DNA from: a virus
Strand: one strand, 5' to 3'
Length of the DNA stretch: 32,732 bases
IMG/VR virus record: IMGVR_UViG_3300042505_000668
Span: 1-32,732 of that record
Shown here: positions 4,965-32,732 of the stretch, one piece after another
How positions within the stretch are numbered: position 1 is the stretch's first letter
Layout: each line of letters opens with the position of its first letter
The notes under the pieces: model-generated
What the model saw: only the letters and a program-made list of their open reading frames with translations
Told to the model about the DNA's origin: nothing
Databases searched by the model: none
Program-made: the position numbers and the translations under genes

Positions 4965-5064
4965 ATTTTTTAAACAACTATTTTGTAAGCACAGATGGGC
5001 TTACAATTATAAAAAGAAGTATTACAGATGTAAAGATTGTCACACTAAATTAAATAAGATATGA
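4951..5064 (+). CDS. Small putative zinc-finger protein (37 aa)
   Basis: The ATG at 4951 opens 37 codons. The spacing Cys12-x-His14 and Cys27-x2-Cys30 (CKH, then CKDC) fits a minimal zinc knuckle; lysine and tyrosine residues lie between. It overlaps the preceding gene by 14 bases and the next start as ATGA, so it is translationally coupled to the XRE-like gene. Small CKH-W...CxxC proteins of this kind occur in many phages without known function. Confidence 0.6.
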   Translation: MKLIEFFKQLFCKHRWAYNYKKKYYRCKDCHTKLNKI

Positions 5065-5267
5065 ACATATTAGAAAAACTGATTTCAGAAAATGCGAAAA
5101 ATAAAAATCAATTCGCAAAACTTGTTGGAGAAACACCGCAAACAATTAACGCACAGGTAAAGTCAAAGAATCCACTTTTACCCGCTTATAATTACGCAAA
5201 GATTTTAGGTAAAAAAGAATTGAAAGGAAATGCTAACGGAATAGAAATCCATATTATATTTGGGTAA
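5061..5267 (+). CDS. XRE/Cro-like helix-turn-helix regulator
   Basis: A 68-residue protein. The segment NKNQFAKLVGETPQTINAQV is a typical helix-turn-helix: the FAKLVG helix, a turn, and the recognition helix TPQTINAQV. The size fits a Cro-type DNA-binding protein without a dimerisation or cleavage domain. It is the last gene of the plus-strand unit and would be expected to act on the control region at 4669-4772. No integrase is seen, so it may control early timing rather than lysogeny. Confidence 0.7.
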   Translation: MNILEKLISENAKNKNQFAKLVGETPQTINAQVKSKNPLLPAYNYAKILGKKELKGNANGIEIHIIFG

Positions 5268-12305: not shown

Positions 12306-12635
12306 TTATTCAAATATTTTATATTCGTTTGTTGTTACGTGTTCAACGTAAGCATCTTTGTTTATACTATACGTGTCTAATGTTTGATTAGTACAAAATA
12401 TCTTATCCCTATAAACGACATTTGTACCATCCTTAATTGTCAAAGTATAATATTTACTTTCTTTAATTGGAAAAATAACAGAAGTAGTAACAAAATATTT
12501 ATCAATTGAAAAAACAGCATCAATTTCAGTTTCAATATTAGTTTCTTCATCACGCAAAACAATAGTATCCGCACTACTACCATATATAATAGCGTTTAAT
12601 GTTTGTGCGGTTGCTTGCTCTTTTAAAATAATCAT
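12306..12635 (-). CDS. Hypothetical structural protein (109 aa)
   Basis: A 109-residue beta-rich protein starting MIILKEQATAQTLNAIIYGS. It is the first gene after the late motif at 12644-12677, and the portal gene starts two bases after it. Position suggests a head-closure, decoration or chaperone role. No motif confirms this. Confidence 0.6.
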   Translation of the reverse strand: MIILKEQATAQTLNAIIYGSSADTIVLRDEETNIETEIDAVFSIDKYFVTTSVIFPIKESKYYTLTIKDGTNVVYRDKIFCTNQTLDTYSINKDAYVEHVTTNEYKIFE

Positions 12636-12643
12636 ATTACTTA

Positions 12644-12677
12644 TTTATTTAAAAACAAGAATTTAACATTTTTGTTA
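12644..12677 (-). promoter_or_regulatory. Late-gene bipartite motif, copy 1
   Basis: The minus strand reads CTTGTTTTTAAATAAA (12644-12659), with a TAACAAAA box whose C lies at 12674, 15 bases further upstream. The ATG of the 109-residue gene is 8 bases downstream. The same block occurs at 14836, 16033 and 23305. A phage-specific late promoter or a conserved 5' leader is inferred. Confidence 0.6.
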
Positions 12678-12682
12678 AAATA

Positions 12683-12715
12683 AAAAAGGAGCAATCAATT
12701 AAGATGCTCCTTTTT
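12683..12715 (-). terminator. Intrinsic terminator after the tail-tube gene
   Basis: AAAAAGGAGCA and TGCTCCTTTTT form a perfect 11-bp stem around an 11-base loop. The minus strand continues with T6. It ends the transcript of the gene at 12736-13263 and lies directly before late motif copy 1. The symmetric A/T flanks make it potentially bidirectional. Confidence 0.85.
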
Positions 12716-12735
12716 AAATTCAAAACTATGAAAAA

Positions 12736-13263
12736 TTAAGAACCTGAAACCACTGTAAATCCTGCAGCCGTTAAAGTGTCACCAATAAAGTTAGCAGGTG
12801 CTTGTTCTTGACCTGTAAGCGTTAATGTATAACCGCTTAAATCACCCATTGCACCACCTGTAACAATTGTACCACCCGTAACCTCGCATCCGTGTTTTAA
12901 ACCTGCATAAAAGAAATTTCCGTTGTTATCTTCTACGATAACCTGACTTCTTCCAAACGCCATCAACTTTAATTCTTTATGGTCTTTAACAGTTAACTTT
13001 TTAAAAGTTAATTCTAAAACTTGTTCGTAAAACGTAGTTCCGTTTTCTCTTGAACTATTAATGTTTTGAGTAAAGGTAGACGCACCTTTTAACTCATATT
13101 TGTAAGCAGTTGGAGTACCTGCTACCGCATCGATAACATCCGTATTTGTTACATCGTAAGTGTATCCTGTTGCATCGCCATAATTAACGAAGTAAACGTT
13201 TTTTAAACCACCTACTGAATCCTTACAAACTTCTAATCTTCCTAATGATAAATCACAAGACAT
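12736..13263 (-). CDS. Probable major tail tube protein
   Basis: A 175-residue beta-rich protein beginning MSCDLSLGRLEVCKDSVGGL, followed by KNVYFVNYGD. It contains GTTFYEQVLELTFKKLTVKD and ends in a run of strands (GYTLTLTGQEQAPA). This layout resembles tail tube proteins of Bacteroidota siphoviruses. Terminators on both sides isolate it as its own unit, as expected for an abundant structural protein. Distance from the other tail genes is unusual, so a capsid decoration protein is the main alternative. Confidence 0.5.
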   Translation of the reverse strand: MSCDLSLGRLEVCKDSVGGLKNVYFVNYGDATGYTYDVTNTDVIDAVAGTPTAYKYELKGASTFTQNINSSRENGTTFYEQVLELTFKKLTVKDHKELKLMAFGRSQVIVEDNNGNFFYAGLKHGCEVTGGTIVTGGAMGDLSGYTLTLTGQEQAPANFIGDTLTAAGFTVVSGS

Positions 13264-13281
13264 AATGTTTATTTTTTATAA

Positions 13282-13312
13282 AAAAAGGCGGTGTTTATTG
13301 CACCACCTTTTT
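13282..13312 (-). terminator. Intrinsic terminator after the major capsid gene
   Basis: On the minus strand AAAAAGGTGGTG and CACCGCCTTTTT pair around a 7-base loop, with one U-G wobble and a T7 tract. Read on the plus strand the same position would be an A-C mismatch, so the hairpin is built for minus-strand RNA. It lies just after the capsid gene stop. Confidence 0.85.
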
Positions 13313-13330
13313 AAGTTAATATTTAATTAA

Positions 13331-14263
13331 TTACGCTGGAGTATATAATACGATTTCTGAACCGATACCATATTGAACCGCTGCAGTAAATCTCATAATT
13401 ACATTTACTGTTTGTGCTCCTGTAACTTCTGCTTGGTCAATTACTCTCACTTCGTTTTGGTCTGATAATAAACCTGTACCAAAATATAAGTTTGATTTTT
13501 GAGCAGCCATCATATAGTTAGAAGCTAATCCGTTTGCAACAAATAATTTAACACCATCAAAAGATAATGAACCATTGTTAAACCATTGTGTACCCATTGC
13601 GTTAGTTCCGTTGGCTCCTAAACCTGAAGCTCCGAAACCGCCCAAAGCACGAACATAAGCACGAGCAACATTTTGAGAAACATAGATATATAAATCTTCT
13701 TTTCCGTAAAGTGCAGCAGGAATAGCATCAACTACTTTTCCTAATTCTGTGATAACATTTGCAGCAGTAACAGTTGTACCTACCACATCAACAACAGTTG
13801 CATCAGCAGTAGCTAAAGGAACGAATCCGTCAAATTCACCTGCGTTTGCAGTTGCACCTCTCCAGATGTTAGTTTCCATTTTTTCAGCTACTTTAGCAGC
13901 AACGTGTCCGATTAAGAAATCAGCAAATGATTTTGGTAAAGTGTCAAAAGCAGACATTCCCATTTCAATTGATTGCCAAGTTGAACGGAAATCTTTTTTA
14001 CATAATTCAAGGTTAACTTGAAACTCCTCAGGAGTGATTACTCTTTCTGTAATTGTTACAGTTGAAGTTGGGTCAAAAGCACAAGTAGCATTTTTTACAA
14101 TTGCATCCGTAGCAATTCTATTGATAACTGATTTATACTTTACGTTTGGCATTACTTCGATACCACCATTTTCAATAGTAGTAGCCGATAATAATGCAGC
14201 AGATATGTATTTCTTTGAAAACTCACCTGCATAGGTTGTTGTGATACTTGTTGTAGTAGCCAT
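13331..14263 (-). CDS. Major capsid protein
   Basis: A 310-residue protein, the size of HK97-fold capsid subunits. It lies right after the scaffold-like gene and before a strong terminator. Features include CKKDFRSTWQSIEMGMSAFD, an Ala-rich helix ADFLIGHVAAKVAEKMETNI like the spine helix, and the C-terminal AAVQYGIGSEIVLY. The base composition is richer in GC than its neighbours, as is common for highly expressed capsid genes. It would assemble the icosahedral head on the scaffold. The family is inferred from position and overall pattern rather than from a diagnostic motif. Confidence 0.75.
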   Translation of the reverse strand: MATTTSITTTYAGEFSKKYISAALLSATTIENGGIEVMPNVKYKSVINRIATDAIVKNATCAFDPTSTVTITERVITPEEFQVNLELCKKDFRSTWQSIEMGMSAFDTLPKSFADFLIGHVAAKVAEKMETNIWRGATANAGEFDGFVPLATADATVVDVVGTTVTAANVITELGKVVDAIPAALYGKEDLYIYVSQNVARAYVRALGGFGASGLGANGTNAMGTQWFNNGSLSFDGVKLFVANGLASNYMMAAQKSNLYFGTGLLSDQNEVRVIDQAEVTGAQTVNVIMRFTAAVQYGIGSEIVLYTPA

Positions 14264-14276
14264 TTTTTTTATTTAA

Positions 14277-14825
14277 TTAATTTGCGATTTTACTCATTAC
14301 TCTGTCGAAAGTTGTCATTTCTCTACCTTGAGAGAAAAGGATTTTTTCAACGTTTTGTTTAGCATCGGGATTGTGTGTTAAAGGTTCAGCTGATAATTCA
14401 ACTACTTCTTTAACTTCCGTTTGTTTTGCTAATTCTGTTTTTAAAGATTCGATTTCAGCCTTTAAATCTTCAATTTCTTTTGAAAAATGTGATTCTCTTA
14501 CTGTTGATTCAATTACCTTTTTAGCTGTTGGTGTTGGTTCCGCTGCTTGTTCAACTTCTACTTCAACCTCTGGAGTTTCCTCTTCTGTTGGTGCAGGTTC
14601 TTTGATTTCAACAATTTCACCCTCAACTGCAACTAAAATCATTCCGTTATCAAGAATATAATCACCTTTTGGCAATGCAACTCTATCTTCACCATTAACA
14701 ATAAACACAGGTTGACCTGCTTCGAATACTTCCGCTTCGATAACAGTCCCATTGTCTAAAGTCATTTGCTCTAATTGGATTTGCATCCCTAAAAGCTTTT
14801 TGATTTCTGTTAGTACGTTTGACAT
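14277..14825 (-). CDS. Scaffold-like head assembly protein
   Basis: A 182-residue acidic protein. The N-terminal half is beta-rich (MTLDNGTVIEAEVFEAGQPV). The middle is a low-complexity acidic stretch (EEETPEVEVEVEQAAEPTPT, about residues 80-100). A coiled coil follows (IEDLKAEIESLKTELAKQ), and the C-terminus ends TFDRVMSKIAN. A coiled coil with a charged C-terminus directly before the capsid gene is typical of scaffolding proteins that line the procapsid. Late motif copy 2 lies just upstream. Confidence 0.65.
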   Translation of the reverse strand: MSNVLTEIKKLLGMQIQLEQMTLDNGTVIEAEVFEAGQPVFIVNGEDRVALPKGDYILDNGMILVAVEGEIVEIKEPAPTEEETPEVEVEVEQAAEPTPTAKKVIESTVRESHFSKEIEDLKAEIESLKTELAKQTEVKEVVELSAEPLTHNPDAKQNVEKILFSQGREMTTFDRVMSKIAN

Positions 14826-14835
14826 ATTAATAATA

Positions 14836-14869
14836 TTTATTTAAAAACAAGGTTTGTTTAATGTTGTTG
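14836..14869 (-). promoter_or_regulatory. Late-gene bipartite motif, copy 2
   Basis: The minus strand reads CTTGTTTTTAAATAAA (14836-14851), with an AACAA box centred at 14866, 15 bases upstream. The scaffold ATG is 10 bases downstream. This is the weakest of the four upstream boxes, although the 16-base core is identical to copies 1 and 4. Confidence 0.6.
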
Positions 14870-14876
14870 TATTTTG

Positions 14877-15257
14877 TTAAAATCCAAACTTTTTAATGTT
14901 TGATATTATTTGATTTATTATATCAATTCTGTTTTTATAATCTTTAGTTACACTTAAAGCTTTTTTATAATCAGTTTGTTGATTTATATCTAAACCTAAA
15001 TCTTTTGCTTGACTTTCTATTTTACCTAATAAACTATTTATATTAGATATTTCAGAATTTAATTTCATTTCAGATTGTTGTGCTACTTTCATTACATTAT
15101 TTAAAGCAGTTTTTACATCTGAATAATAATTAGCACCTTGGTCAGTTCCTGTTGTTAATGCTTTTAAATCGTCAATTAAACCTAATTCTACTTTGTGCGT
15201 TCCTAATTCCGTTTTAGGGAATAATTTACTGAATACTTGTTTTTCTTGTGGTGTCAT
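14877..15257 (-). CDS. Coiled-coil hypothetical head protein (126 aa)
   Basis: A 126-residue, almost entirely helical protein starting MTPQEKQVFSKLFPKTELGT. Heptad-like patterns at about residues 50-120 suggest a coiled coil. It lies between the Cys-rich small gene and the scaffold gene. A role as a minor scaffold or internal head protein is plausible but not shown. Confidence 0.65.
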   Translation of the reverse strand: MTPQEKQVFSKLFPKTELGTHKVELGLIDDLKALTTGTDQGANYYSDVKTALNNVMKVAQQSEMKLNSEISNINSLLGKIESQAKDLGLDINQQTDYKKALSVTKDYKNRIDIINQIISNIKKFGF

Positions 15258-15258
15258 A

Positions 15259-15453
15259 TTATCCGTTTACTCTAATTATTACTCTTGTTCCGTTGTTTTC
15301 TGTAATGGTTACGTTATCAACACCGCTTGTTTTACCAATACCTTGATTTTGTAAATCACCATTGCAACATTCTTTACTATAAGTGTTATCATCACATAGA
15401 CAACCACGCTTACCGCCCGTCGGACTTGTTTTACTTTTTGTTTTCGTGCTCAT
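15259..15453 (-). CDS. Small cysteine-rich head-region protein (64 aa)
   Basis: A 64-residue protein. Residues 13-40 carry GGKRGCLCDDNTYSKECCNG, i.e. Cys18, Cys20, Cys29 and Cys30, followed by LQNQGIG. The second half is a short beta segment. The same Cys-x-Cys...Cys-Cys pattern recurs in small genes between protease and capsid in Bacteroidota phages. It may bind zinc or form disulphides in the virion. It overlaps the protease gene by 23 bases and is followed closely by the coiled-coil gene. Confidence 0.65.
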   Translation of the reverse strand: MSTKTKSKTSPTGGKRGCLCDDNTYSKECCNGDLQNQGIGKTSGVDNVTITENNGTRVIIRVNG

Positions 15454-16024
15454 TTATTAATTGTTTTAATTGTTCTATAATATTTTCTTGTTTACTTAAT
15501 TGCTTTTTTTCTTCTAACTTATCAGCAAAATAACCCTCTAATGAAAAACCTTTTACTTTACCCGTTTTAACATAGTCATTCCAAATAGTCTCGTCTTCAA
15601 CTTTTACCGAAGCCATCCACGTACCAACTGGAACGCTTAAATTGTAAATAGCACTTTTGTCTTTTGCGTTATCTTCAACTATCCAACTTTCAACTACGGT
15701 TAGACCTTTGATTTCTTTTCCGTGTTCTAAAGTCCAATTGTTCTGATTACCATTTTTAAAGAATAATTGACTCGCTTTGTTTACTGTATCTTTTGAAAAG
15801 TAGATATAATACTCATCTTCACCATTACGTCTGTAAATTGGTTTTTCAGGAATTAAAACCGCACCCATTAAGATACGTTTTTCGTTGCTTACTTCTGCAA
15901 GTTTTATTTCTTCTGACTTTAACGCTACAAAATTAGATTCAATTGCAGGAGTTGAAACCACTGAAATAGCATCAACACCGCTTAACTCATCTTTGTCGTC
16001 TATAATTAATTCAATTAAATTCAT
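15431..16024 (-). CDS. Prohead protease (XkdF-like)
   Basis: A 197-residue protein resembling the XkdF-like putative prohead proteases. It starts with a strand and the segment VDAISVVSTPAIESNFVALK, then has LMGAVLIPEKPIYRRN, TLEHGK near residue 100 (possible catalytic His), WIVED and GTWMASVKVE, followed by KGFSLEGYF. These motifs fit the herpesvirus-type serine protease fold that matures the scaffold and capsid. The C-terminal 30 residues are charged and helical. It is the first gene after late motif copy 3. Confidence 0.75.
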   Translation of the reverse strand: MNLIELIIDDKDELSGVDAISVVSTPAIESNFVALKSEEIKLAEVSNEKRILMGAVLIPEKPIYRRNGEDEYYIYFSKDTVNKASQLFFKNGNQNNWTLEHGKEIKGLTVVESWIVEDNAKDKSAIYNLSVPVGTWMASVKVEDETIWNDYVKTGKVKGFSLEGYFADKLEEKKQLSKQENIIEQLKQLINEHENKK

Positions 16025-16032
16025 TTTTTTTC

Positions 16033-16066
16033 TTTATTTAAAAACAACAATTAATATTTTTTGTTA
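16033..16066 (-). promoter_or_regulatory. Late-gene bipartite motif, copy 3
   Basis: The minus strand reads GTTGTTTTTAAATAAA (16033-16048), one base different from the other copies, with a TAACAAAA box whose C lies at 16063, 15 bases upstream. The protease ATG is 8 bases downstream. A hairpin (16119-16146) precedes it. Confidence 0.6.
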
Positions 16067-16118
16067 TATTTGTGCTTTGAGTTTTTTCATAGTTTAAATT
16101 TTTTAGTTATTAATCATT

Positions 16119-16146
16119 AAAGCCACATATTAATTTATGTGGCTTT
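16119..16146. terminator. Hairpin between tape measure and protease genes
   Basis: AAAGCCACATA and TATGTGGCTTT form an 11-bp stem with a 6-base loop. The T6 tract follows on the plus strand, while the minus strand has only TTT before AATGA. It probably ends or attenuates the tape measure transcript. The better T-tract faces the plus direction, where no gene is seen. Confidence 0.6.
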
Positions 16147-16150
16147 TTTG

Positions 16151-16201
16151 TTTTAAGGATATAACCTTAATTTTTATTTTTATTTTAAGGATATAACCTT
16201 A
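16151..16201. repeat. Two 19-bp direct repeats, each with an inverted repeat
   Basis: TTTTAAGGATATAACCTTA occurs at 16151-16169 and again at 16183-16201, 32 bases apart. Each copy contains the inverted repeat TAAGG...CCTTA. The second copy holds the stop codon of the tape measure gene. The role is unknown; paired protein-binding sites or a recent duplication are possible. Confidence 0.8.
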
Positions 16202-18298
16202 TCCTAAACTTGCGTTTTGTACTATGTTTCTATCTAAACTTTGTGCAGTTGTTACATTGTTAGCAACTACATACGCCTGAACAGGTTGCTGATTTCCTAA
16301 AGTTTGAGCAATTTGATTTACTCCGCTATTACCTACAACGTTGAAACTCGGTGCAGCAGTAGCACTACCACCAACAGAACTCGCACTTATTGAAGGAGCA
16401 GAACCACCTCCGCCACCACCTGGAACTTTAACAGAAACTATCTTTTTAACAGTTGCAAATCCTGTAGCAATTGCTCCAGCAGCAGCAACTCCACCCGCAA
16501 CAATTCCAGCTGGACCAGGAATGGATGCAACCATACCTTTATATGCTGACATTGAAGATTGTAAAGTGTCAACGGTTGTAGCAGCAATAGCCATAGCCTT
16601 ACCAGCTACTGTATTTTTTCCTAATAATTCTGATGCTGTCGAAAGTGTTTGACCAATAGCCGCAACCATTTTAGCTTTAGCCTGTGCTTCTAATTCATCA
16701 ATCTTTATTCTTGCATCTGCATATTGCTGTTTTAAAGTTGTTCTTTGCTCTTCTGTTAAAGTTTGGTCATTTGTAATTGTATTTTCTCTTTCTGTTAATA
16801 AATTTCTTTGCTCTTCAAATGATAATAAATCAAATTCTTTTTTAAGCTCTAAATCTTTATAAAGTTGTTCTTGGTCTTTTAATCTTTTATCTTCATCATC
16901 TTTTAACTTATCTTCTTTTTGTTTATCTTTTACTTTCTGTTCTTCTTCCTGTTGTTTTAAAAGAATTCCGTTTCTTTCGTTTAAATATTTTATTTCAAGT
17001 TCATTAGTATCAATTTTATTTTTTTCTAAAAGTGCTTTTTCTTTTTTAAATTTTTCTTCTAATAATTCGAGTTCAGTTTTACCAGCATTTGCATTTTGAA
17101 TCCTTGCATCGTCTGCTATTTTTTTAGCCTCGTCGAATTGCTTTTTTAATTCTTCTTTTGCCTTATCTTGTTGCTCTTTTCTACGTTGTGCATTTTCTTT
17201 AGCACTTGAAACCTCTGCTGTTTTAACCTCAACTAAATGCCTATCCTGTATGTCTTTCTTTTCGTCAAGTGCTTTTCTTACATCTTGATTTTGTTTATTG
17301 AATTGCTTAATACTTTCGTTTGCGGTTTCTTGTTGCTTTTTAATAACTTCTTCATCTGCACCCGCAGCTTTTAAACTTGCTAAAGTATTTAAATTCTTTT
17401 GATAGGTATTTTCCGCAATTGCTCTTTGTGATTTCTCATAAGCTATTTTTTCATCAATCAATTTTAATTCAAGTTTACGAATAGCCTCGGCACTCATTCC
17501 ACTTGCTTTTGCCATTGCAAGTTCTTGCTTTTGCTTTTTATCGAATTGCTCCGAGTTTCTTTCAAGAGTTTTAGTCTGACTTTCTAAAGCAAGTCTATTT
17601 TTTTCAACCGCAGCAGCATTATTTTTAGCTGCTTCTGAATTATCCATAAAGTATTTAGTCAAAGCCACACCCGCTGCAATAAGAGCAACAACAGCTGCTA
17701 TAATTGCCCCTATTGGATTTGCAGCCATAGCAGTATTCCATAACCACTGCCCAGCTGTAACCGCTTTTTGAACTATTGTAAATTTTTGAGCCGACGAACT
17801 TAATGCTTTAAATGCAACTGCACCCTCACGAATACCACGCACACCCTCAGCAAGTGCCATAGCTCCCTGAACTTTTAATAATGCTTTTTCAAGTTCCTCA
17901 CTTTGTCCGCCTGTTAAAGCCATTGCACCTTGTACACCTGCAAAAGCAGAAGTAGTACCTTGCAACGCTCCGCCTAATTTTGTGTCAAATGTCGTAGCTG
18001 CCGCATCAACAACCATATCGGTTTGCATTTGCACACGTCTATAATTACCAACAGACGCAAGTAAATCTTTATACTCTTGAGTTGCTGACTGACCTGCTAA
18101 AGCTAATTCATAAAGTCTATCTTCTGCCTCACCCATTCGAGCAGTTAAAGGTTTTAAATCACCGTAAACTTCCTCAAAAGACGCATCAACGCTTTTAACT
18201 GAATTATCAACTTTCTTTAGTGCCTTATCTAAATTATCTAAACCGCCTACTGCTTGGAGCGTGTTAACATCTATTTCAATCGTCTTTGTGATAGCCAT
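16199..18298 (-). CDS. Tape measure protein
   Basis: A 699-residue protein, the second longest in the genome. It has an N-terminal helical part, a hydrophobic segment at about 190-216 (NPIGAIIAAVVALIAAGVAL), a long Lys/Glu/Gln-rich coiled coil (about 220-550), a second hydrophobic Ala/Gly segment (about 590-625) and a Gly/Ser/Ala-rich tail. This is the classic layout of tape measure proteins, which set tail length and may form a channel in the inner membrane. At about 1.5 angstrom per residue the tail would be roughly 100 nm, which fits a siphovirus. No peptidase domain is visible. Confidence 0.9.
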   Translation of the reverse strand: MAITKTIEIDVNTLQAVGGLDNLDKALKKVDNSVKSVDASFEEVYGDLKPLTARMGEAEDRLYELALAGQSATQEYKDLLASVGNYRRVQMQTDMVVDAAATTFDTKLGGALQGTTSAFAGVQGAMALTGGQSEELEKALLKVQGAMALAEGVRGIREGAVAFKALSSSAQKFTIVQKAVTAGQWLWNTAMAANPIGAIIAAVVALIAAGVALTKYFMDNSEAAKNNAAAVEKNRLALESQTKTLERNSEQFDKKQKQELAMAKASGMSAEAIRKLELKLIDEKIAYEKSQRAIAENTYQKNLNTLASLKAAGADEEVIKKQQETANESIKQFNKQNQDVRKALDEKKDIQDRHLVEVKTAEVSSAKENAQRRKEQQDKAKEELKKQFDEAKKIADDARIQNANAGKTELELLEEKFKKEKALLEKNKIDTNELEIKYLNERNGILLKQQEEEQKVKDKQKEDKLKDDEDKRLKDQEQLYKDLELKKEFDLLSFEEQRNLLTERENTITNDQTLTEEQRTTLKQQYADARIKIDELEAQAKAKMVAAIGQTLSTASELLGKNTVAGKAMAIAATTVDTLQSSMSAYKGMVASIPGPAGIVAGGVAAAGAIATGFATVKKIVSVKVPGGGGGGSAPSISASSVGGSATAAPSFNVVGNSGVNQIAQTLGNQQPVQAYVVANNVTTAQSLDRNIVQNASLG

Positions 18299-18420
18299 TT
18301 TACTTGGTTTTTAAATTCTTGTAGGTTACTTGGTATTTTATATTTTCCTTTTGCGATGTCGACCGCTTCACTTGTTCCCAACTTTTGGAACTCAAGCATT
18401 TCAATAATTAGTTTAAGCAT
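18271..18420 (-). CDS. Small hypothetical protein before the tape measure (49 aa)
   Basis: The ATG at 18420 opens 49 codons (MLKLIIEMLEFQKLGTSEAV, then a basic helical tail) ending in TAG at 18271. It overlaps the upstream gene by 8 bases and the tape measure start by 28 bases, bridging the 114-base gap. The position before the tape measure is where chaperone extensions often lie, but no similarity is seen. Confidence 0.5.
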   Translation of the reverse strand: MLKLIIEMLEFQKLGTSEAVDIAKGKYKIPSNLQEFKNQVKWLSQRRLK

Positions 18421-20668
18421 TTTGTATAATTGGTATTTCAATATTTATATCTACTCCTAATTCGTTTTCCCATTTTCCTGTTATATATCCTATACGTTGC
18501 GAACCCGTTGTGTTTTGTGATATATCTACTCTAATAGTTGTGTCGTTATAATAATCCGTAGGTATGTAATCAATCCACCCATAAAGCGACGCTTGTAACT
18601 CTATATCGGGACTTACATTACGTAATAATAATACTTCAATAGTTTGCTCTCTATTATCAACTTCGTAAAATGGTTCAAAAGAAAATCTATTTCCAATCGG
18701 TACTTCGCCACTACGATAATCAGTTAATAATTCTAACGTAGTTTCACCACTTGTTAAATCAGTTGTTAGCTTGTTTATAGTGTACTTTTTATCCCTTATG
18801 ATAATTCTATCGTTTAACTTAATATCAATCAACTCAACAGGATTAAAATAGCATTTTACAATAACTAATCTACTTTTGATATTGAATATATTACCCAAAT
18901 AGTTTTCGTAGTGTCTTTTGTAAAGTCCGTTTGAAACGTTTGACAAAAACCACGTTGATATTTCTTCACCCCAATTTAAAGTTAAAATAGTTCCGTTACT
19001 ATAATCGTTTGAGAATCTTCTGTATTGGGTTATATGCTGATGTCCGCCCGTTGTTAAATCGATTCTAATATTTGGAGTTACTGTCTGCACCCCATTATCG
19101 TACATCAATAAAGGTTTCGGTAAATAGTTAGCTAAATCAATCTTTTTAAATGTTAGCGTTTGAAAATCACTATTTGTTTTACGCTCATACATTGCATTTT
19201 CAAAAGGTAATTCAACAGTAAAAGTTGAACTTTCTAAACTATCAATTTGTTCATAAGCTAAATCCCCATAAGCAAAATTACGTGTTGATAAAAACAAGTC
19301 ATCAAATTTTGTATTTAATATATTTTCAGATTTTTGATACTTGAAATTTATACTTTTATACATCGAAGTCTTTTTTAAATCAATTTCATCAGTTATAACA
19401 TTTGCTGAAATATCATTATAACGCCCATCATTGTAATAAAGTTCTAACGGAATTAACTCGTAGGTTGTTTCATCTTGCGGAATTATAACAAGGTTAAACA
19501 TTTTGATAAGTCCGCTAACCAAATCAATTAATTTAATATCTGGTGCGTATCTTCCAACGTATATTACAGAACCTATTGTTAATGTAGTTGCAGAAGCCGT
19601 ATAAACTACGCTTGTAATACCAAAAGACCTACGATATAAAAGAGTAGTCGTAAAAGTAAAACCACTTTGAGAACTTATCGAAACTGAATACTTATCTTCT
19701 AAATTTTGAGTAGTTATAGTTCCTGTAAAAAAATTACGAATACCACTATTACCTACAATATTTACAAATGAATTATCTAAAACTCCATTCTTAAAAATTA
19801 GTATGTCGTATGGTTGTGTACTTGCCGTATTTACAGAAACACTTATAGAACGATTGTTGTCTAAACCTGGGAATATTTCAAAACCTACCTCATCAGTTGT
19901 TAAATCCATTTCTGTAAAATCAACGCTACTCTTTGAAGTAAAATTAACTTTCAAAGGCGATACCTTTGGGATAAATGTTTCTGCGTTCTTAAACAACATC
20001 CATAACTTTGTAAATTGTGGATAATCTAAAAATGCACCCGTAAAATTTAAACCATATCTATCGGATATTTTTTGCATTATAATAGACAAAGGAACAGCTG
20101 GAAATAAAGTATTCCATTTTATAGAACCCGCATTAATTGTAACATCATTACTTCCTCCTGTATTGTAATCGTAAATCCTATCATTCGCAAATAACGGATA
20201 AGATACATCGTAAGAAGTGCTTGTAATTCTATTGATTACTTCTGTACTTGTATATGTATGGTTTAAACTACTGAAATCTAAATTAGCAAGTTTATCCTCT
20301 TTTAAAATATCTTTGATACTTTTAGCCTTGCCATAAAATACAATACTATAAGCGTCTAACATTCCGTTTTTATACTTCACATCGTTTAACGCAAACGCAC
20401 CCTCTCTAAAAGTACGTGTGTCTATTTTAATATATCCGTTGTATTTTACCCTATGGTCAAAACCACCATCAATACTACTTTCGTACCAATGCTTAAATAT
20501 TTCGTTATTAGTCGGACTTGCTGGAATAGTAAAACTTTGAGTAAAATCAGTTTTGGCTTTTGATACATCGGCAATATCTTGAACAGATGAAGTAACTGAA
20601 ATTTTTTCATCTTCAAACAATTCAATTCTTTTTGCTATTCCATCTATGTAAATATATAAAGCTACCAT
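18413..20668 (-). CDS. Large tail/baseplate protein (751 aa)
   Basis: A 751-residue beta-rich protein. The N-terminus contains YIYIDGIAKRIELFEDEKIS followed by FTQSFTIPASPTNNEIF, a pattern seen in large tail proteins of Bacteroidota phages upstream of the tape measure gene. It may be a distal tail or tail-hub component (Dit/Tal-like). The C-terminus contains RNVSPDIELQASLYGWIDYI. No hydrolase motif was recognised. The start codon shares a base with the stop of the upstream gene. Confidence 0.6.
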   Translation of the reverse strand: MVALYIYIDGIAKRIELFEDEKISVTSSVQDIADVSKAKTDFTQSFTIPASPTNNEIFKHWYESSIDGGFDHRVKYNGYIKIDTRTFREGAFALNDVKYKNGMLDAYSIVFYGKAKSIKDILKEDKLANLDFSSLNHTYTSTEVINRITSTSYDVSYPLFANDRIYDYNTGGSNDVTINAGSIKWNTLFPAVPLSIIMQKISDRYGLNFTGAFLDYPQFTKLWMLFKNAETFIPKVSPLKVNFTSKSSVDFTEMDLTTDEVGFEIFPGLDNNRSISVSVNTASTQPYDILIFKNGVLDNSFVNIVGNSGIRNFFTGTITTQNLEDKYSVSISSQSGFTFTTTLLYRRSFGITSVVYTASATTLTIGSVIYVGRYAPDIKLIDLVSGLIKMFNLVIIPQDETTYELIPLELYYNDGRYNDISANVITDEIDLKKTSMYKSINFKYQKSENILNTKFDDLFLSTRNFAYGDLAYEQIDSLESSTFTVELPFENAMYERKTNSDFQTLTFKKIDLANYLPKPLLMYDNGVQTVTPNIRIDLTTGGHQHITQYRRFSNDYSNGTILTLNWGEEISTWFLSNVSNGLYKRHYENYLGNIFNIKSRLVIVKCYFNPVELIDIKLNDRIIIRDKKYTINKLTTDLTSGETTLELLTDYRSGEVPIGNRFSFEPFYEVDNREQTIEVLLLRNVSPDIELQASLYGWIDYIPTDYYNDTTIRVDISQNTTGSQRIGYITGKWENELGVDINIEIPIIQNA

Positions 20669-21639
20669 TATATTACATCGTTTATTAGTCCGTAGTTGTA
20701 TTCAAATTCAACTTCGTAGTTAATATTTCTATCTTTTAAATGCGTCTTAATATCAGCACTTTGACTTTTTACTATTGCTGGTTTATTGTCTAAAAGTACA
20801 ACCTGACTTAATAATAAATCTTGAATTAACTCGGAATAGTTTTCATCAACCCACCCCGTGTTACATTTTACTTTTTGCTTACCTTGAAAATTGAACCTTT
20901 GTTTTTGTCCTTGTAACGGATTGTAATCTATTGAAGATGGTAACAGATTGTAATCTTTTGAAGTTACATCTATACCTTGTTGATTTGCTTTAAAGAAAGT
21001 TAGGAATTGCCAACCACCAAAACGATTAATAAATTTACAAACTATTGGCGTGTATTTTGGTTCGCATAATTGTTCAGCGTAAAAGAAATCAGATTCTACA
21101 TTTTCTTCTTCTTCCAATATTGGAAACTTCCACATTCCACGTTCAGTTACATCAACATAACCATAAGAAGTATCATAGTTTTCAATTTCTAAAAAGAAGT
21201 TAACATAATTAGTATCAAAATCCTTAACGTAATTTTTAATATCTAAATTGAATAATGGTAAAATATCAGCATCTGTTACTTGATTATAACCGTTTGAATA
21301 ATTAGTATACCCATTCAAACATACATAAGTTTCAGTATCTAAAAGAGTATCATTTGAATATCTTTTAACTTTCATATAACACCATGTATCAACTTCTTCT
21401 TCTGCTGGTGCTGATACGCTAATGGGTGCAATAGGTTTAATAAATGCAACTGCAAAATTAGATACATTCCACGCTATATCCGTTTGTGATGGACTTGGTA
21501 CTGCTTTAGTTAAAGTATAGTTTGGAGTTGTTGGTTCTGTATCGCCTTTATTCCATAAAAAAACCTCAATCTTTGCGGAAGTTTGACCGACCTCGTTAAC
21601 CTCGATAAAATACGGACTTCTTATAAATATTTTTTTCAT
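20668..21639 (-). CDS. Tail protein of unknown role (323 aa)
   Basis: A 323-residue beta-rich protein beginning MKKIFIRSPYFIEVNEVGQT. Residues 1-110 look like an immunoglobulin or fibronectin-like sandwich (TSAKIEVFLWNKGD). The rest contains CKFINRFGGWQFLTFFKANQ and a C-terminal beta region. It always seems to pair with the downstream 751-residue protein; the two genes share one base here. A baseplate or tail-tip role is inferred. Confidence 0.55.
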   Translation of the reverse strand: MKKIFIRSPYFIEVNEVGQTSAKIEVFLWNKGDTEPTTPNYTLTKAVPSPSQTDIAWNVSNFAVAFIKPIAPISVSAPAEEEVDTWCYMKVKRYSNDTLLDTETYVCLNGYTNYSNGYNQVTDADILPLFNLDIKNYVKDFDTNYVNFFLEIENYDTSYGYVDVTERGMWKFPILEEEENVESDFFYAEQLCEPKYTPIVCKFINRFGGWQFLTFFKANQQGIDVTSKDYNLLPSSIDYNPLQGQKQRFNFQGKQKVKCNTGWVDENYSELIQDLLLSQVVLLDNKPAIVKSQSADIKTHLKDRNINYEVEFEYNYGLINDVI

Positions 21640-22148
21640 TTCTTATTAATTGTATATTGTAAAAATTGTTCTACGTCTAATCCGTATGCTTCTACTAATT
21701 CATCAGGTAACCTTTCAAACGCTTTCTCAAATGGTTTAGTAAAAAATAAACTCGGCTTAATACCATTCTTAAAAATTCCTTTTGCAATTAAAAAAGCAGT
21801 TGATTTATAACTCATAAATTTACCATTTTCTTTATTACGAAATTGAAATCTTCTTTTTGTAACCCAATCTTGTATAGGTTTCAAAGGTGGTCTTTTACTT
21901 TTATAACTAAATGGTGTATCGTATTTCTTTTTAGTTCCGCTTACTCCTTTGTCTTGAAAAGTTCCGTAATCTTCCATTAAAAAAGCCATTCGAAAACTAT
22001 TTGCACCTACTTCAATTTCTTTATCTAAAGAATTATAAAGTTTCTTATCAACGTTTTTACCTTGCTTTGTTAAATTGCTCCTACTTTGCTGAATAACATA
22101 TTTAGCAAATGCGTTTAAATATTCCTTTGTGTTTGTATTCGTTAACAT
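21636..22148 (-). CDS. HK97 gp10-like tail completion protein
   Basis: A 170-residue protein. The segments FLMEDYGTFQDKGVSG, PLKPIQDWVTKRRF, FLIAKGIFKNGIKP and FFTKPFEKAF fit the HK97 gp10/minor tail completion family, in which a YGxxxxxG segment and an A..I...GI..-P..F core are typical. Such proteins sit at the head-tail joint or tail terminator. It overlaps its neighbours by 7 bases upstream and 4 bases downstream. Confidence 0.65.
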   Translation of the reverse strand: MLTNTNTKEYLNAFAKYVIQQSRSNLTKQGKNVDKKLYNSLDKEIEVGANSFRMAFLMEDYGTFQDKGVSGTKKKYDTPFSYKSKRPPLKPIQDWVTKRRFQFRNKENGKFMSYKSTAFLIAKGIFKNGIKPSLFFTKPFEKAFERLPDELVEAYGLDVEQFLQYTINKK

Positions 22149-22564
22149 ATAGTCATATCATTACGAACTACAACATCGAATGTTAACGCCCAACCTGCTA
22201 AATCGTTTTCAAAACGTTCTGTAAAAGGTTCAAAATTTGGTGAACCTGTCAACTCCCAAAAATCATTTCTTAAATCACCACGATTTAACCTATCCATTAC
22301 CCTAACTCCTAAACTCATTTGCGTATTCCAAACATCAACTTTATTACTTTCGTCTTTTTGATTAAGTAAATCCATTAAAAGAATAGTAACATTAAATTGT
22401 ATTACGTTTCCCTGATGCGTTGCCGAGTTAATCATAATATGCGACAAAGGAAATAATGTCCTTTTAGCTAAATCTACTTCGAAAATGTCACCCTCTGTAA
22501 CTGTATTTACAAAAGGTTCATCAAGTAACGCTTCTTTTATTTTATTTATTAAACTATACACCAT
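22142..22564 (-). CDS. Tail terminator-like protein (140 aa)
   Basis: A 140-residue alpha/beta protein beginning MVYSLINKIKEALLDEPFVN. It contains IMINSATHQGNVIQFNVTIL and DLAGWALTFDVVVRND. Size, fold pattern and position next to the gp10-like gene fit a tail completion/terminator protein. It begins inside the -1 frame of the chaperone (11-base overlap). The specific family is not certain. Confidence 0.5.
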   Translation of the reverse strand: MVYSLINKIKEALLDEPFVNTVTEGDIFEVDLAKRTLFPLSHIMINSATHQGNVIQFNVTILLMDLLNQKDESNKVDVWNTQMSLGVRVMDRLNRGDLRNDFWELTGSPNFEPFTERFENDLAGWALTFDVVVRNDMTIC

Positions 22565-22808
22565 TTCTTTTTATGTTTTTTATTTCTATTTCTGTTTTTT
22601 CCTTTTCAAAACTTAACCACATCATTAATTGTGTGATGGGAATTCTTGTAACGGCATCAAATTTGAGTACATCTCCTTGAGCTGCTGCATAGAGTGATTG
22701 ATACCAACCCCATTTTTTTCCAAAATGTTCTTCGCTTGTTCCGATTGTTCCACTTCGTTCTGTATAAAGTCCGCTAAACCGCTCACGCAATCGTTGAGCA
22801 AAGTCCAA
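22554..22808 (-). CDS. Tail assembly chaperone, -1 frame extension
   Basis: This frame has no ATG at its beginning and opens within the T-run at 22807-22815. If the ribosome slips -1 there, residue 164 of the upstream chaperone is joined to 84 residues starting LDFAQRLRERFSGLY and containing FGKKWGWYQSLYAAAQGDVL and TQLMMWLSFEKEKTEIE. This segment looks like the conserved C-terminal part of Bacteroidota tail chaperones. The fusion would be 248 residues and acts like gpGT of lambda, binding the tape measure during tail assembly. Confidence 0.7.
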   Translation of the reverse strand: MDFAQRLRERFSGLYTERSGTIGTSEEHFGKKWGWYQSLYAAAQGDVLKFDAVTRIPITQLMMWLSFEKEKTEIEIKNIKRNGV

Positions 22809-23299
22809 AAAAAAAGCATTGAACCAAGTGCAACATCTAAAGGCATATACTTTAAAACTTCTGCCATATCTTGCGAATCTTTGTTGTATTCTTCAATAGT
22901 ATACAAAGACTTTGTTTTGTTTTTAATCGGTCTGTAAAGCACCGCCATAGCTTTGTGTAATGTTTGCGTGTCGCTTAAATAACTTTCCAAATCGATATAC
23001 TCCCCAGAAGTAATATCTTCTAACTTCGGTATGAATCCAAACTCATAAACCCCTAACTTAAACGTGTTAGTTAGTTTTGGTTTTTGTTTTAATAAATTAT
23101 TTAAATGCGTCAATATTTCGCTTACTTCTGCTATTCTAATTCTTGCAACATCTTTTAATTCTATGTTACAAAATATTTCAATTGTCTTTTGATTAACAAA
23201 ATCACTTGGCTCATTATTTGAAATTAACTTCTCAAACCTTTGATATTGATAAAGAGTTATTTCGTTTAGTGTTTCAGGAATGGTAATATTAATTTTCAT
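22625..23299 (-). CDS. Tail assembly chaperone, unshifted product (gpG-like)
   Basis: A 224-residue protein beginning MKINITIPETLNEITLYQYQ, like other chaperones of this class. Residues 1-164 are shared with the frameshift product. Residues 165-224 (WTLLNDCVSGLADFIQ onwards) are specific to the unshifted frame and overlap 184 bases of the -1 frame. It starts 5 bases after late motif copy 4 and heads the tail operon. A homopolymer sequencing error that merges both frames into one gene is the alternative to programmed shifting. Confidence 0.75.
   Translation of the reverse strand: MKINITIPETLNEITLYQYQRFEKLISNNEPSDFVNQKTIEIFCNIELKDVARIRIAEVSEILTHLNNLLKQKPKLTNTFKLGVYEFGFIPKLEDITSGEYIDLESYLSDTQTLHKAMAVLYRPIKNKTKSLYTIEEYNKDSQDMAEVLKYMPLDVALGSMLFFWTLLNDCVSGLADFIQNEVEQSEQAKNILEKNGVGINHSMQQLKEMYSNLMPLQEFPSHN
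22807..22816 (-). promoter_or_regulatory. -1 ribosomal frameshift slippery site
   Basis: The minus strand reads C followed by nine T and GG. In the zero frame this is CTT TTT TTT TGG; it contains the ideal heptamer T-TTT-TTT. A -1 slip changes the next codon from TGG to TTG and enters the 84-residue conserved frame. No strong downstream stem was identified by eye. Confidence 0.7.
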
Positions 23300-23304
23300 A
23301 TTCT

Positions 23305-23338
23305 TTTATTTAAAAACAAGGTTTTAGGTTTTTTGTAT
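23305..23338 (-). promoter_or_regulatory. Late-gene bipartite motif, copy 4
   Basis: The minus strand reads CTTGTTTTTAAATAAA (23305-23320), with an ATACAAAAA box whose C lies at 23335, 15 bases upstream. The chaperone ATG is 5 bases downstream. A terminator at 23348-23369 ends the packaging transcript just before it. Confidence 0.6.
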
Positions 23339-23347
23339 AAAGTAAAA

Positions 23348-23369
23348 AAGCAATTCGTTAAGATTGCTT
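23348..23369 (-). terminator. Intrinsic terminator after the packaging genes
   Basis: On the minus strand AAGCAAT and ATTGCTT form a 7-bp stem with an 8-base loop followed by further T. The stop codon of the 58-residue gene lies in the loop. It precedes late motif copy 4. Confidence 0.75.
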
Positions 23370-23534
23370 ACTTTTAATTATTTCTACATTATCAAATCTT
23401 ATATTTTCATATTCTTTATTTATATCTAATTCTAAAAAAACAAGATACCTGTTATATATTTTTTCCGAAACTATTATAGATTTATTGCTGCCTATCATTT
23501 TAGATAGTTCGTTTATTATTGTATAATCTTTCAT
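23358..23534 (-). CDS. Small hypothetical protein (58 aa)
   Basis: The ATG at 23534 opens 58 codons (MKDYTIINELSKMIGSNKSI, then a charged tail) ending in TAA within the terminator loop. It follows the stop of the 52-residue gene by 5 bases. No motif is recognised. Confidence 0.55.
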   Translation of the reverse strand: MKDYTIINELSKMIGSNKSIIVSEKIYNRYLVFLELDINKEYENIRFDNVEIIKSKQS

Positions 23535-25993: not shown

Positions 25994-26482
25994 TTATTTT
26001 AAATTGTTATAATCTTCTTGAAATAATTCTCTTAATTTTTTCTTGTGTGCTTTTAGCGAATGAAATATACTCACAAAACTTATGCCAGTTTCTTTTGCTA
26101 ATTTACGCATAGATATATCGTTATCCCTATAAATTGTGAATAGCTTTTTATCGTACATATCCCAACTATTTACTTCGGCTTCGCATTTGGTTCTGAACTT
26201 ATACCATTCAATTTCGTAATTCTCATCAAAATCATCTTCTATTGGTGTATCAATTAATTCTTCTGTCCCAAATTTATTGTAGAATTGGGACAAATATACG
26301 GAACGAATAACAATAAATAAATAACCTTTGTTTAGTTTACCATTTGTAAAGCATTTTTCTTCGCTTGAATACTGATGTAATTTTAAATATACTTCTGAAA
26401 CTATATCTTCGCAATAAGACCTATCAAATATCTTTGCATATTCGATTAGTTGTTTATGGTGTTGAAATAGTTTCTCTAACAT
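25994..26482 (-). CDS. Sigma-70-like protein, candidate late-gene regulator
   Basis: A 162-residue protein with the layout of a small sigma factor. Residues 20-80 resemble region 2 (CEDIVSEVYLKLHQYSSE, then GYLFIVIRSVYLSQFYNKFG). Residues about 112-155 resemble a region 4 helix-turn-helix (NDISMRKLAKETGISFVSIF and HSLKAHKKKLRELF). The middle is an acidic linker. It lies between replication and packaging genes, where many phages place their late activator. It probably directs host RNA polymerase to late promoters; the four late motifs are candidate targets. Confidence 0.7.
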   Translation of the reverse strand: MLEKLFQHHKQLIEYAKIFDRSYCEDIVSEVYLKLHQYSSEEKCFTNGKLNKGYLFIVIRSVYLSQFYNKFGTEELIDTPIEDDFDENYEIEWYKFRTKCEAEVNSWDMYDKKLFTIYRDNDISMRKLAKETGISFVSIFHSLKAHKKKLRELFQEDYNNLK

Positions 26483-26567: not shown

Positions 26568-26575
26568 CAAATATA
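26568..26575 (-). promoter_or_regulatory. Bacteroidota-type -7 promoter element before the sigma-like gene
   Basis: The minus strand reads TATATTTG, 85 bases before the sigma-like start. No clear -33 box lies upstream. The leader holds a weak 5-bp inverted repeat TCAGG...CCTGA (26498-26517). It would start the packaging transcript separately from replication. Confidence 0.45.
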
Positions 26576-32536: not shown

Positions 32537-32642
32537 TTCTTAATATTTTTTTATATAATGTATTTATGCGTTCAGAATTTACGCCTCTTTTATAGTAGAA
32601 GTTAATTACTCTTTTAATTCTTTGTAATGGTGATTGTTTCAT
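32523..32642 (-). CDS. Small basic protein, complete copy (39 aa)
   Basis: The ATG at 32642 opens 39 codons (MKQSPLQRIKRVINFYYKRG, then VNSERINTLYKKILRNGKH) ending in TAA at 32523. A diverged, truncated version starts at 67. The gene overlaps the next start by 14 bases. Conservation of length and pattern between two diverged copies is good evidence that it is translated. Its composition (Lys, Arg, Tyr) suggests nucleic-acid binding. Confidence 0.6.
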   Translation of the reverse strand: MKQSPLQRIKRVINFYYKRGVNSERINTLYKKILRNGKH

Positions 32643-32732
32643 TTTAAAAAAACGATTAGCCTATACATCGTGAGGTTTTAAAGATAAGTTATATAAAATC
32701 AAATCACGTAATTAATATTATCTTATCTTTTG
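32607..32732. repeat. Terminal direct repeat, right copy (126 bp)
   Basis: Identical to 32-157 and ending exactly at the window end. The base before it (32606) is where the two ends diverge. The distance from divergence to contig end is 126 bases, which equals k-1 for an assembly with k of 127. This suggests the end was set by a branch in the assembly graph. Confidence 0.9.

Follow-up and report, generated by a model that had tools for sequence, protein, structure and literature searches.

Late transcription control in phages

Phage-encoded sigma factors with cognate late promoters are already known from T4 (gp55) and SPO1 (gp28 and gp34), and the essentiality of gp55 has been noted (PMC9429907). 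For the tailed phages of Bacteroidota, late transcription control is largely undescribed. The window considered here, a viral DNA of 32,732 nucleotides (IMG/VR record IMGVR_UViG_3300042505_000668), carries four copies of a two-box motif in front of late genes. An earlier note on this DNA had read them as candidate late promoters and linked them to a sigma-like protein of the phage itself. Comparison with hundreds of contigs from related viruses makes it very probable that the sites are the promoters of the late operons (head, tail and lysis) and that they are used by host RNA polymerase carrying a phage-encoded, ECF-like sigma factor. The earlier proposal is backed by the co-occurrence of motif and sigma factor, the control with the reversed motif, the relatives G049 and P12024S, and the position of the sites at operon heads.

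The late promoters of T4 (TATAAATA) lack a -35 box and depend on the clamp and gp33. Like gp55, the protein of the window would be a small phage sigma factor that sends host RNA polymerase to late genes with an AT-rich, -10-like element. Unlike the -10-only, clamp- and gp33-dependent TATAAATA promoters, the sites of the window have a -35-like box at a constant distance upstream, and the protein possesses regions 2 and 4, as ECF sigma factors do. In the SPO1 cascade, too, phage-encoded sigma factors (gp28 and gp33/gp34) act on two-box promoters peculiar to the phage, which serve the middle and late genes; SPO1, however, has a Bacillus host and other promoters, and the comparison is one of descriptions rather than sequences. 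RinA and ArpU are small regulators encoded just before the terminase genes, as is the protein of the window, and control packaging and structural genes. They are described as activators rather than sigma factors, and the protein of the window has no match to either family in Pfam, NCBIfam or PHROGs at the thresholds used.

ECF sigma factors are two-domain proteins whose promoters combine an AAC-containing -35 box, a spacer of about 16-17 bases and a CGT-type -10 box, as in the flavobacterial SM6 motif; in Flavobacterium psychrophilum, CGT -10 boxes have been assigned to them by transcript mapping, and 5.5% of the mapped mRNAs are leaderless (PMC9723704). The window has such a spacing and an AAC in its -35-like box (AACAA/ACAA), and the group of Nonlabens phage P12024S alone also has the CGT-type -10 box (CGTTA[A/T]TA). 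The differences are that the sigma factor of the window is phage-encoded and that the -10 element of its group is an invariant sequence of 14 bases, TGTTTTTAAATAAA, without CGT. The -10 boxes of ECF promoters vary, the CGT type being common but not universal, so that it is not strictly required. To our knowledge, no ECF sigma factor has a -10 element as long as the invariant 14-base core. No report of the motif, its variants or an ECF-like late sigma factor in this phage group was found in open-access full texts. As far as found, a known kind of mechanism, a phage sigma factor with its late promoters, occurs here in a new and widespread form of the ECF type.

Four sites at the heads of late operons

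The sequence TTGTTTTTAAATAAA is present in four exact copies in the 32.7-kb window, all on the minus strand (12644-12658, 14836-14850, 16033-16047 and 23305-23319), and copies with one mismatch are absent from the window. Markov models of order 3 and 4 predict 0.015-0.024 copies. At all four sites, ACAA, which occurs at 0.87% of positions, lies exactly 13 bases 5' of TTG. The base preceding TTG is C, C, G and C at sites 1 to 4, which leaves a 16-mer that is the same in three copies. These results reproduce the earlier description in its coordinates, its gaps to the start codons, its constant ACAA distance and its 16-base core, and they bear out the view that the motif exceeds what AT-rich DNA gives by chance. 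Since the base before TG is variable, the core conserved throughout the family is the 14-mer TGTTTTTAAATAAA rather than a longer sequence.

Putative late promoter 1 has an exact -10-like core at 12644-12657, 8 bases before the ATG at 12635, and a -35-like ACAA box, within TAACAAAA, at 12672-12675. It precedes a 109-aa gene of unknown function followed by the portal gene, and the motif stands before the same gene in relatives, e.g. L020, L032 and L041. At candidate promoter 2, the exact core (14836-14849) lies 10 bases before the ATG at 14825, with ACAA at 14864-14867; here, a 182-aa scaffold-like gene is followed by the major capsid gene. Candidate promoter 3 (exact core at 16033-16046, ACAA within TAACAAAA at 16061-16064) is found 8 bases before the ATG at 16024 of an XkdF-like head maturation protease gene. 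Candidate promoter 4 (exact core at 23305-23318, ACAA within ATACAAAAA at 23333-23336) is found 5 bases before the ATG at 23299, which begins the first gene of the late block after the terminase. The gap upstream of each of the four motif-bearing genes is at least 51 bases. Most late genes inside the operons lack the motif, and the tightly packed ones in the window have none.

Terminator-like hairpins on the minus strand lie 5' of promoter 1 (12683-12715; -15.4 kcal/mol, z -4.66), promoter 3 (16119-16146; -14.8 kcal/mol, z -6.49) and promoter 4 (23339-23374; -7.6 kcal/mol, z -3.25). Site 2 has no stable hairpin upstream; three copies directly following a hairpin or terminator is thus what had been noted before. 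A search of Rfam for an RNA element gave no match.

Some early genes have a host-type TAnnTTTG element in front of them (32257, 31772 and 30882, minus strand), as had also been remarked, and a further candidate -7 element, TATATTTG, lies on the same strand at 26568-26575, within the gap of 103 bases upstream of the sigma gene. The total of 70 matches, against 65 ± 8 by chance, makes both this candidate and the remark on early genes weak. A host sigma-A promoter (Bacteroidota -33 TTG / -7 TAnnTTTG) hidden in the core was rejected, as none of the four sites has a TAnnTTTG in the required register; a downstream -7 element at the right distance is absent from them as well.

The phage-encoded sigma-like protein

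The gene at 25994-26482 (minus strand), with the genes of the small and large terminase downstream of it, encodes a protein of 162 aa. It matches TIGR02985 (Sig70_bacteroi1) over residues 7-152 (E 5e-6, 26.8 bits) and TIGR02937 (E 0.003), both below the curated cut-offs; PHROG sigma factors match it, and Pfam gives no sigma match. The homologue of G049 matches TIGR02985 with an E value of 8e-10, also below the curated cut-off, and the protein of P12024S passes the Pfam Sigma70_r2 cut-off of 24 with a score of 25.2. The AlphaFold model of the window protein (mean pLDDT 80) consists of two helical domains and a low-confidence linker at residues 71-80. In Foldseek, ECF sigma factors head the list of PDB structures that match it from end to end (prob 1.00), and the C-terminal domain fits region 4 of sigma-E on -35 DNA (2h27) with a TM score of 0.82 at 1.4 Å. 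Whole-length TM scores, at 0.3-0.46, are low, an effect of the uncertain linker between the two domains. The length and the layout are those of ECF sigma factors, which comprise region 2 and region 4 only in about 160-200 aa.

On the basis of the protein models and the AlphaFold model, the product can be identified as an ECF-like sigma factor, in keeping with its earlier designation as sigma-70-like; together with the co-occurrence of the motif, they make it the predicted reader of the four promoters. No neighbouring anti-sigma gene was recognised beside it. In the sigma genes of L006, L132 and L136, the linker from region 2 to region 4 is longer by 18 residues, inserted in frame.

Co-occurrence and concerted change of motif and sigma factor

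The co-occurrence was assessed on contigs retrieved through relatives of the sigma factor alone, without use of the motif. In the 1.1 Mb of these contigs, the 14-base core occurs 92 times and its reversal not once. The 33 loci of close relatives account for 34 copies (0.4 expected) and the 78 loci of distant relatives for 58 (0.16 expected). Among the close relatives, the window's own group, ACAA is in its exact place at 32 of the 32 gene-linked core copies. The distant relatives (group C) have an unchanged 14-base core and a weak -35 box, mostly reduced to the C at -17, which 75% of 20 sites have; 55 of their 78 loci, mostly short, are without a gene-linked core. Their sigma factors are better conserved in region 2 than in the recognition helix of region 4. 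These patterns would fit a reading of the core by region 2 and of the upstream box by region 4.

The G039 family (L120, L167, L186 and L215) is very distant and was wrongly placed by the automatic grouping of variants; it has four canonical sites, not sites of the G049 type. In L215, L167 and L186, ACAA and the canonical core stand directly before the sigma gene itself, which suggests a positive autoregulation of the sigma factor.

Most late proteins of G049 are 79-94% identical to those of the window and the sigma factor 63%, with the tape measure and large terminase more diverged. The variant ACAA-N13-GTGTTTTAAT occurs exactly four times in the 30.8 kb of G049, always at the four homologous operon heads, from which the canonical core is absent. 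Two further loci found by the variant motif alone, L334 and L397, encode sigma factors 92% identical to that of G049. L007 (313-11389) combines three sites of the variant type with a single canonical one. It looks recombinant, because the canonical site adjoins a portal gene whose product is 97% identical to the window's, and this site was probably gained by recombination. Across the relatives, signal and sigma factor change together. The large terminase of G049 (L213:4862-5518) shows 37% identity to the window's over the matched part, though the sigma factor and structural genes are close; the terminase appears to have been swapped, with the sigma factor and late promoters kept together.

The cultured phage P12024S was reached via its portal protein, which shares 35% identity with that of the window. 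Its large terminase gene is preceded by one whose product carries a sigma-70 region 2 annotation. Searches of cultured phages by tblastn with the sigma factors of the window, of a group C member and of L228 had given no matches. The canonical core is absent from P12024S, and as its near matches are at chance level, the search was turned to a motif of its own. The late genes of P12024S and its relatives are preceded by AAAACAA-N15-CGTTA[A/T]TA, usually exactly 4 bases before the ATG; P12024S has the -10-like box CGTTAATA behind the shared AAAACAA box, alongside a different sigma factor. Sorted by sigma type, the P12024S group has 29 CGTTA[A/T]TA sites and no canonical ones, whereas the window's group has 51 canonical sites and 1 of the CGTTA[A/T]TA type; against the 29 of the P12024S group, each of the two other large groups has a single such site.

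Alternative explanations

A conserved translation leader was the alternative named at the outset. The A-rich core beside the ATG would then aid the ribosomes of Bacteroidota, which do not rely on Shine-Dalgarno pairing, on late mRNAs. The core does end in an A-rich sequence, and its distance to the ATG is short and nearly constant for a given gene, being 4-11 bases at most sites and exactly 4 in most sites of the P12024S type. However, in a second, recurring cluster of sites the ATG is 20-28 bases away, a leader would not account for ACAA at a fixed spacing about 30 bases farther upstream, and the motif is missing from most operon-internal late genes. In L057, a 62-aa ORF lies between the motif and p224 (97% identical to the window's), so that the motif precedes the ORF and p224 has none of its own. 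G049 and L365 show the same arrangement, their ORF having 61 aa. In L334 and L397, whose sigma factor is of the G049 type, there is no insert, and p224 follows the motif directly. The motif thus leaves the gene and keeps the operon head, which disfavours a gene-specific leader, and the sites all change along with the sigma factor, not the ribosome. As the sole explanation, a translation leader has very little probability. One part of the idea may well hold, as the transcripts may include the A-rich end of the core, to the benefit of translation, and a promoter role and a translation role are compatible.

It is also very improbable that host polymerase with a host sigma factor transcribes the late operons and that the phage protein activates it by binding DNA, as RinA or ArpU would. 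Its gene shares with rinA and arpU the position shortly before the terminase genes, but regions 2 and 4 are both present in the protein, which matches ECF models along its length, if weakly, and neither of those two families at the thresholds used, and the host element TAnnTTTG is not in register within the core. Least probable are operators, i.e. sites where a phage repressor or other regulator binds at the operon heads while the actual promoters lie somewhere else. Operators, too, could recur in a fixed orientation ahead of operons, but palindromic symmetry is absent, the orientation is always that of the gene, and the two boxes have promoter-like spacing and covary with a sigma factor.

Proposed mechanism and its implications

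If the four sites are promoters of the phage sigma factor, each would consist of the -35-like AACAA/ACAA and the -10-like TGTTTTTAAATAAA, with 14 bases between ACAA and TG; that this promoter type is cognate to the phage sigma factor is suggested by their covariation. The sigma factor would be produced earlier in infection, with the terminase, from a host-type promoter. Host core RNA polymerase with the phage sigma factor would then bind the four sites late in infection, region 4 contacting the ACAA box and region 2 the core. Transcription would start within AAATAAA or right behind it, so that the 5' leaders would be very short, and the terminators just upstream would insulate the preceding operons.

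The geometry of ECF promoters would put the starts very near the ATG, above all in the P12024S group, so that leaderless or nearly leaderless late mRNAs are predicted. A more tentative and rather doubtful proposal is that of a lineage-wide sigma-promoter pair, in which an unusually long, invariant -10/initiation element of 14 bases fuses the promoter with the start-codon region and leaves the late mRNAs leaderless or nearly so; in the P12024S group, where the -10 box is fixed 4 bases before the ATG at most sites, the start site would then be the ATG itself.

As the 14-base core is exactly searchable, the late operons of many uncultivated phages become predictable from sequence. The natural variants TGTTTTTAAATAAA, GTGTTTTAAT and CGTTAATA, which share the AACAA box, constitute a system for the co-evolution of ECF-like sigma factors and their promoters, and such sigma-promoter variants offer orthogonal promoters for the genetics of Bacteroidota.

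Spread of the motif

Among the matches listed for IMG/VR, ACAA-N13-TTGTTTTTAAATAAA is found in more than 118 stretches and the reversed pattern in 6. An ATG-led ORF begins 1-25 bases downstream of 130 of 138 sites. A near-match pattern in 38 records gives up to 7 copies per record, nearly always on one strand, and its reversed control has almost no matches. Over the roughly 195 Mb of 64 genomes belonging to one order of Bacteroidota, the core has a density of about 0.6 per Mb; that of the window is 122 per Mb. A chance origin in AT-rich DNA is rejected by the Markov expectation, the counts of reversed patterns and this low density.

ACAA is 97-99% conserved in 119 distinct sites, a figure biased by the many group A loci that were retrieved with a pattern containing ACAA and the core; the unbiased figures are those of the sigma-fetched loci. 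As motif-only scans with 14-15 specified bases return mostly unrelated chance matches, multi-copy or gene-linked matches alone were used. In the core-rich genomes of the Bacteroidota order, a group C sigma factor was present only in the previously known MAG, and no host or prophage was identified there. Recurring late promoters in G006, G020, G025, G035 and G002 have the ATG 24-28 bases downstream and a common leader like GTATAAACCCTTAAAA, perhaps a second conserved class of leaders.

Elsewhere in the window, a small plus-strand gene (5061-5267) among minus-strand genes has the look of a Cro/Cox-like helix-turn-helix protein, with a weak Phage_Cox match below the cut-off. The last 126 bases of the window, at the end of 32576-32732, exactly repeat bases 32-157, and the first 31 bases mismatch their counterpart at 13 positions. 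The contig probably represents the entire phage genome, about 32.6 kb long and assembled as a circle, with the first end of poor quality.
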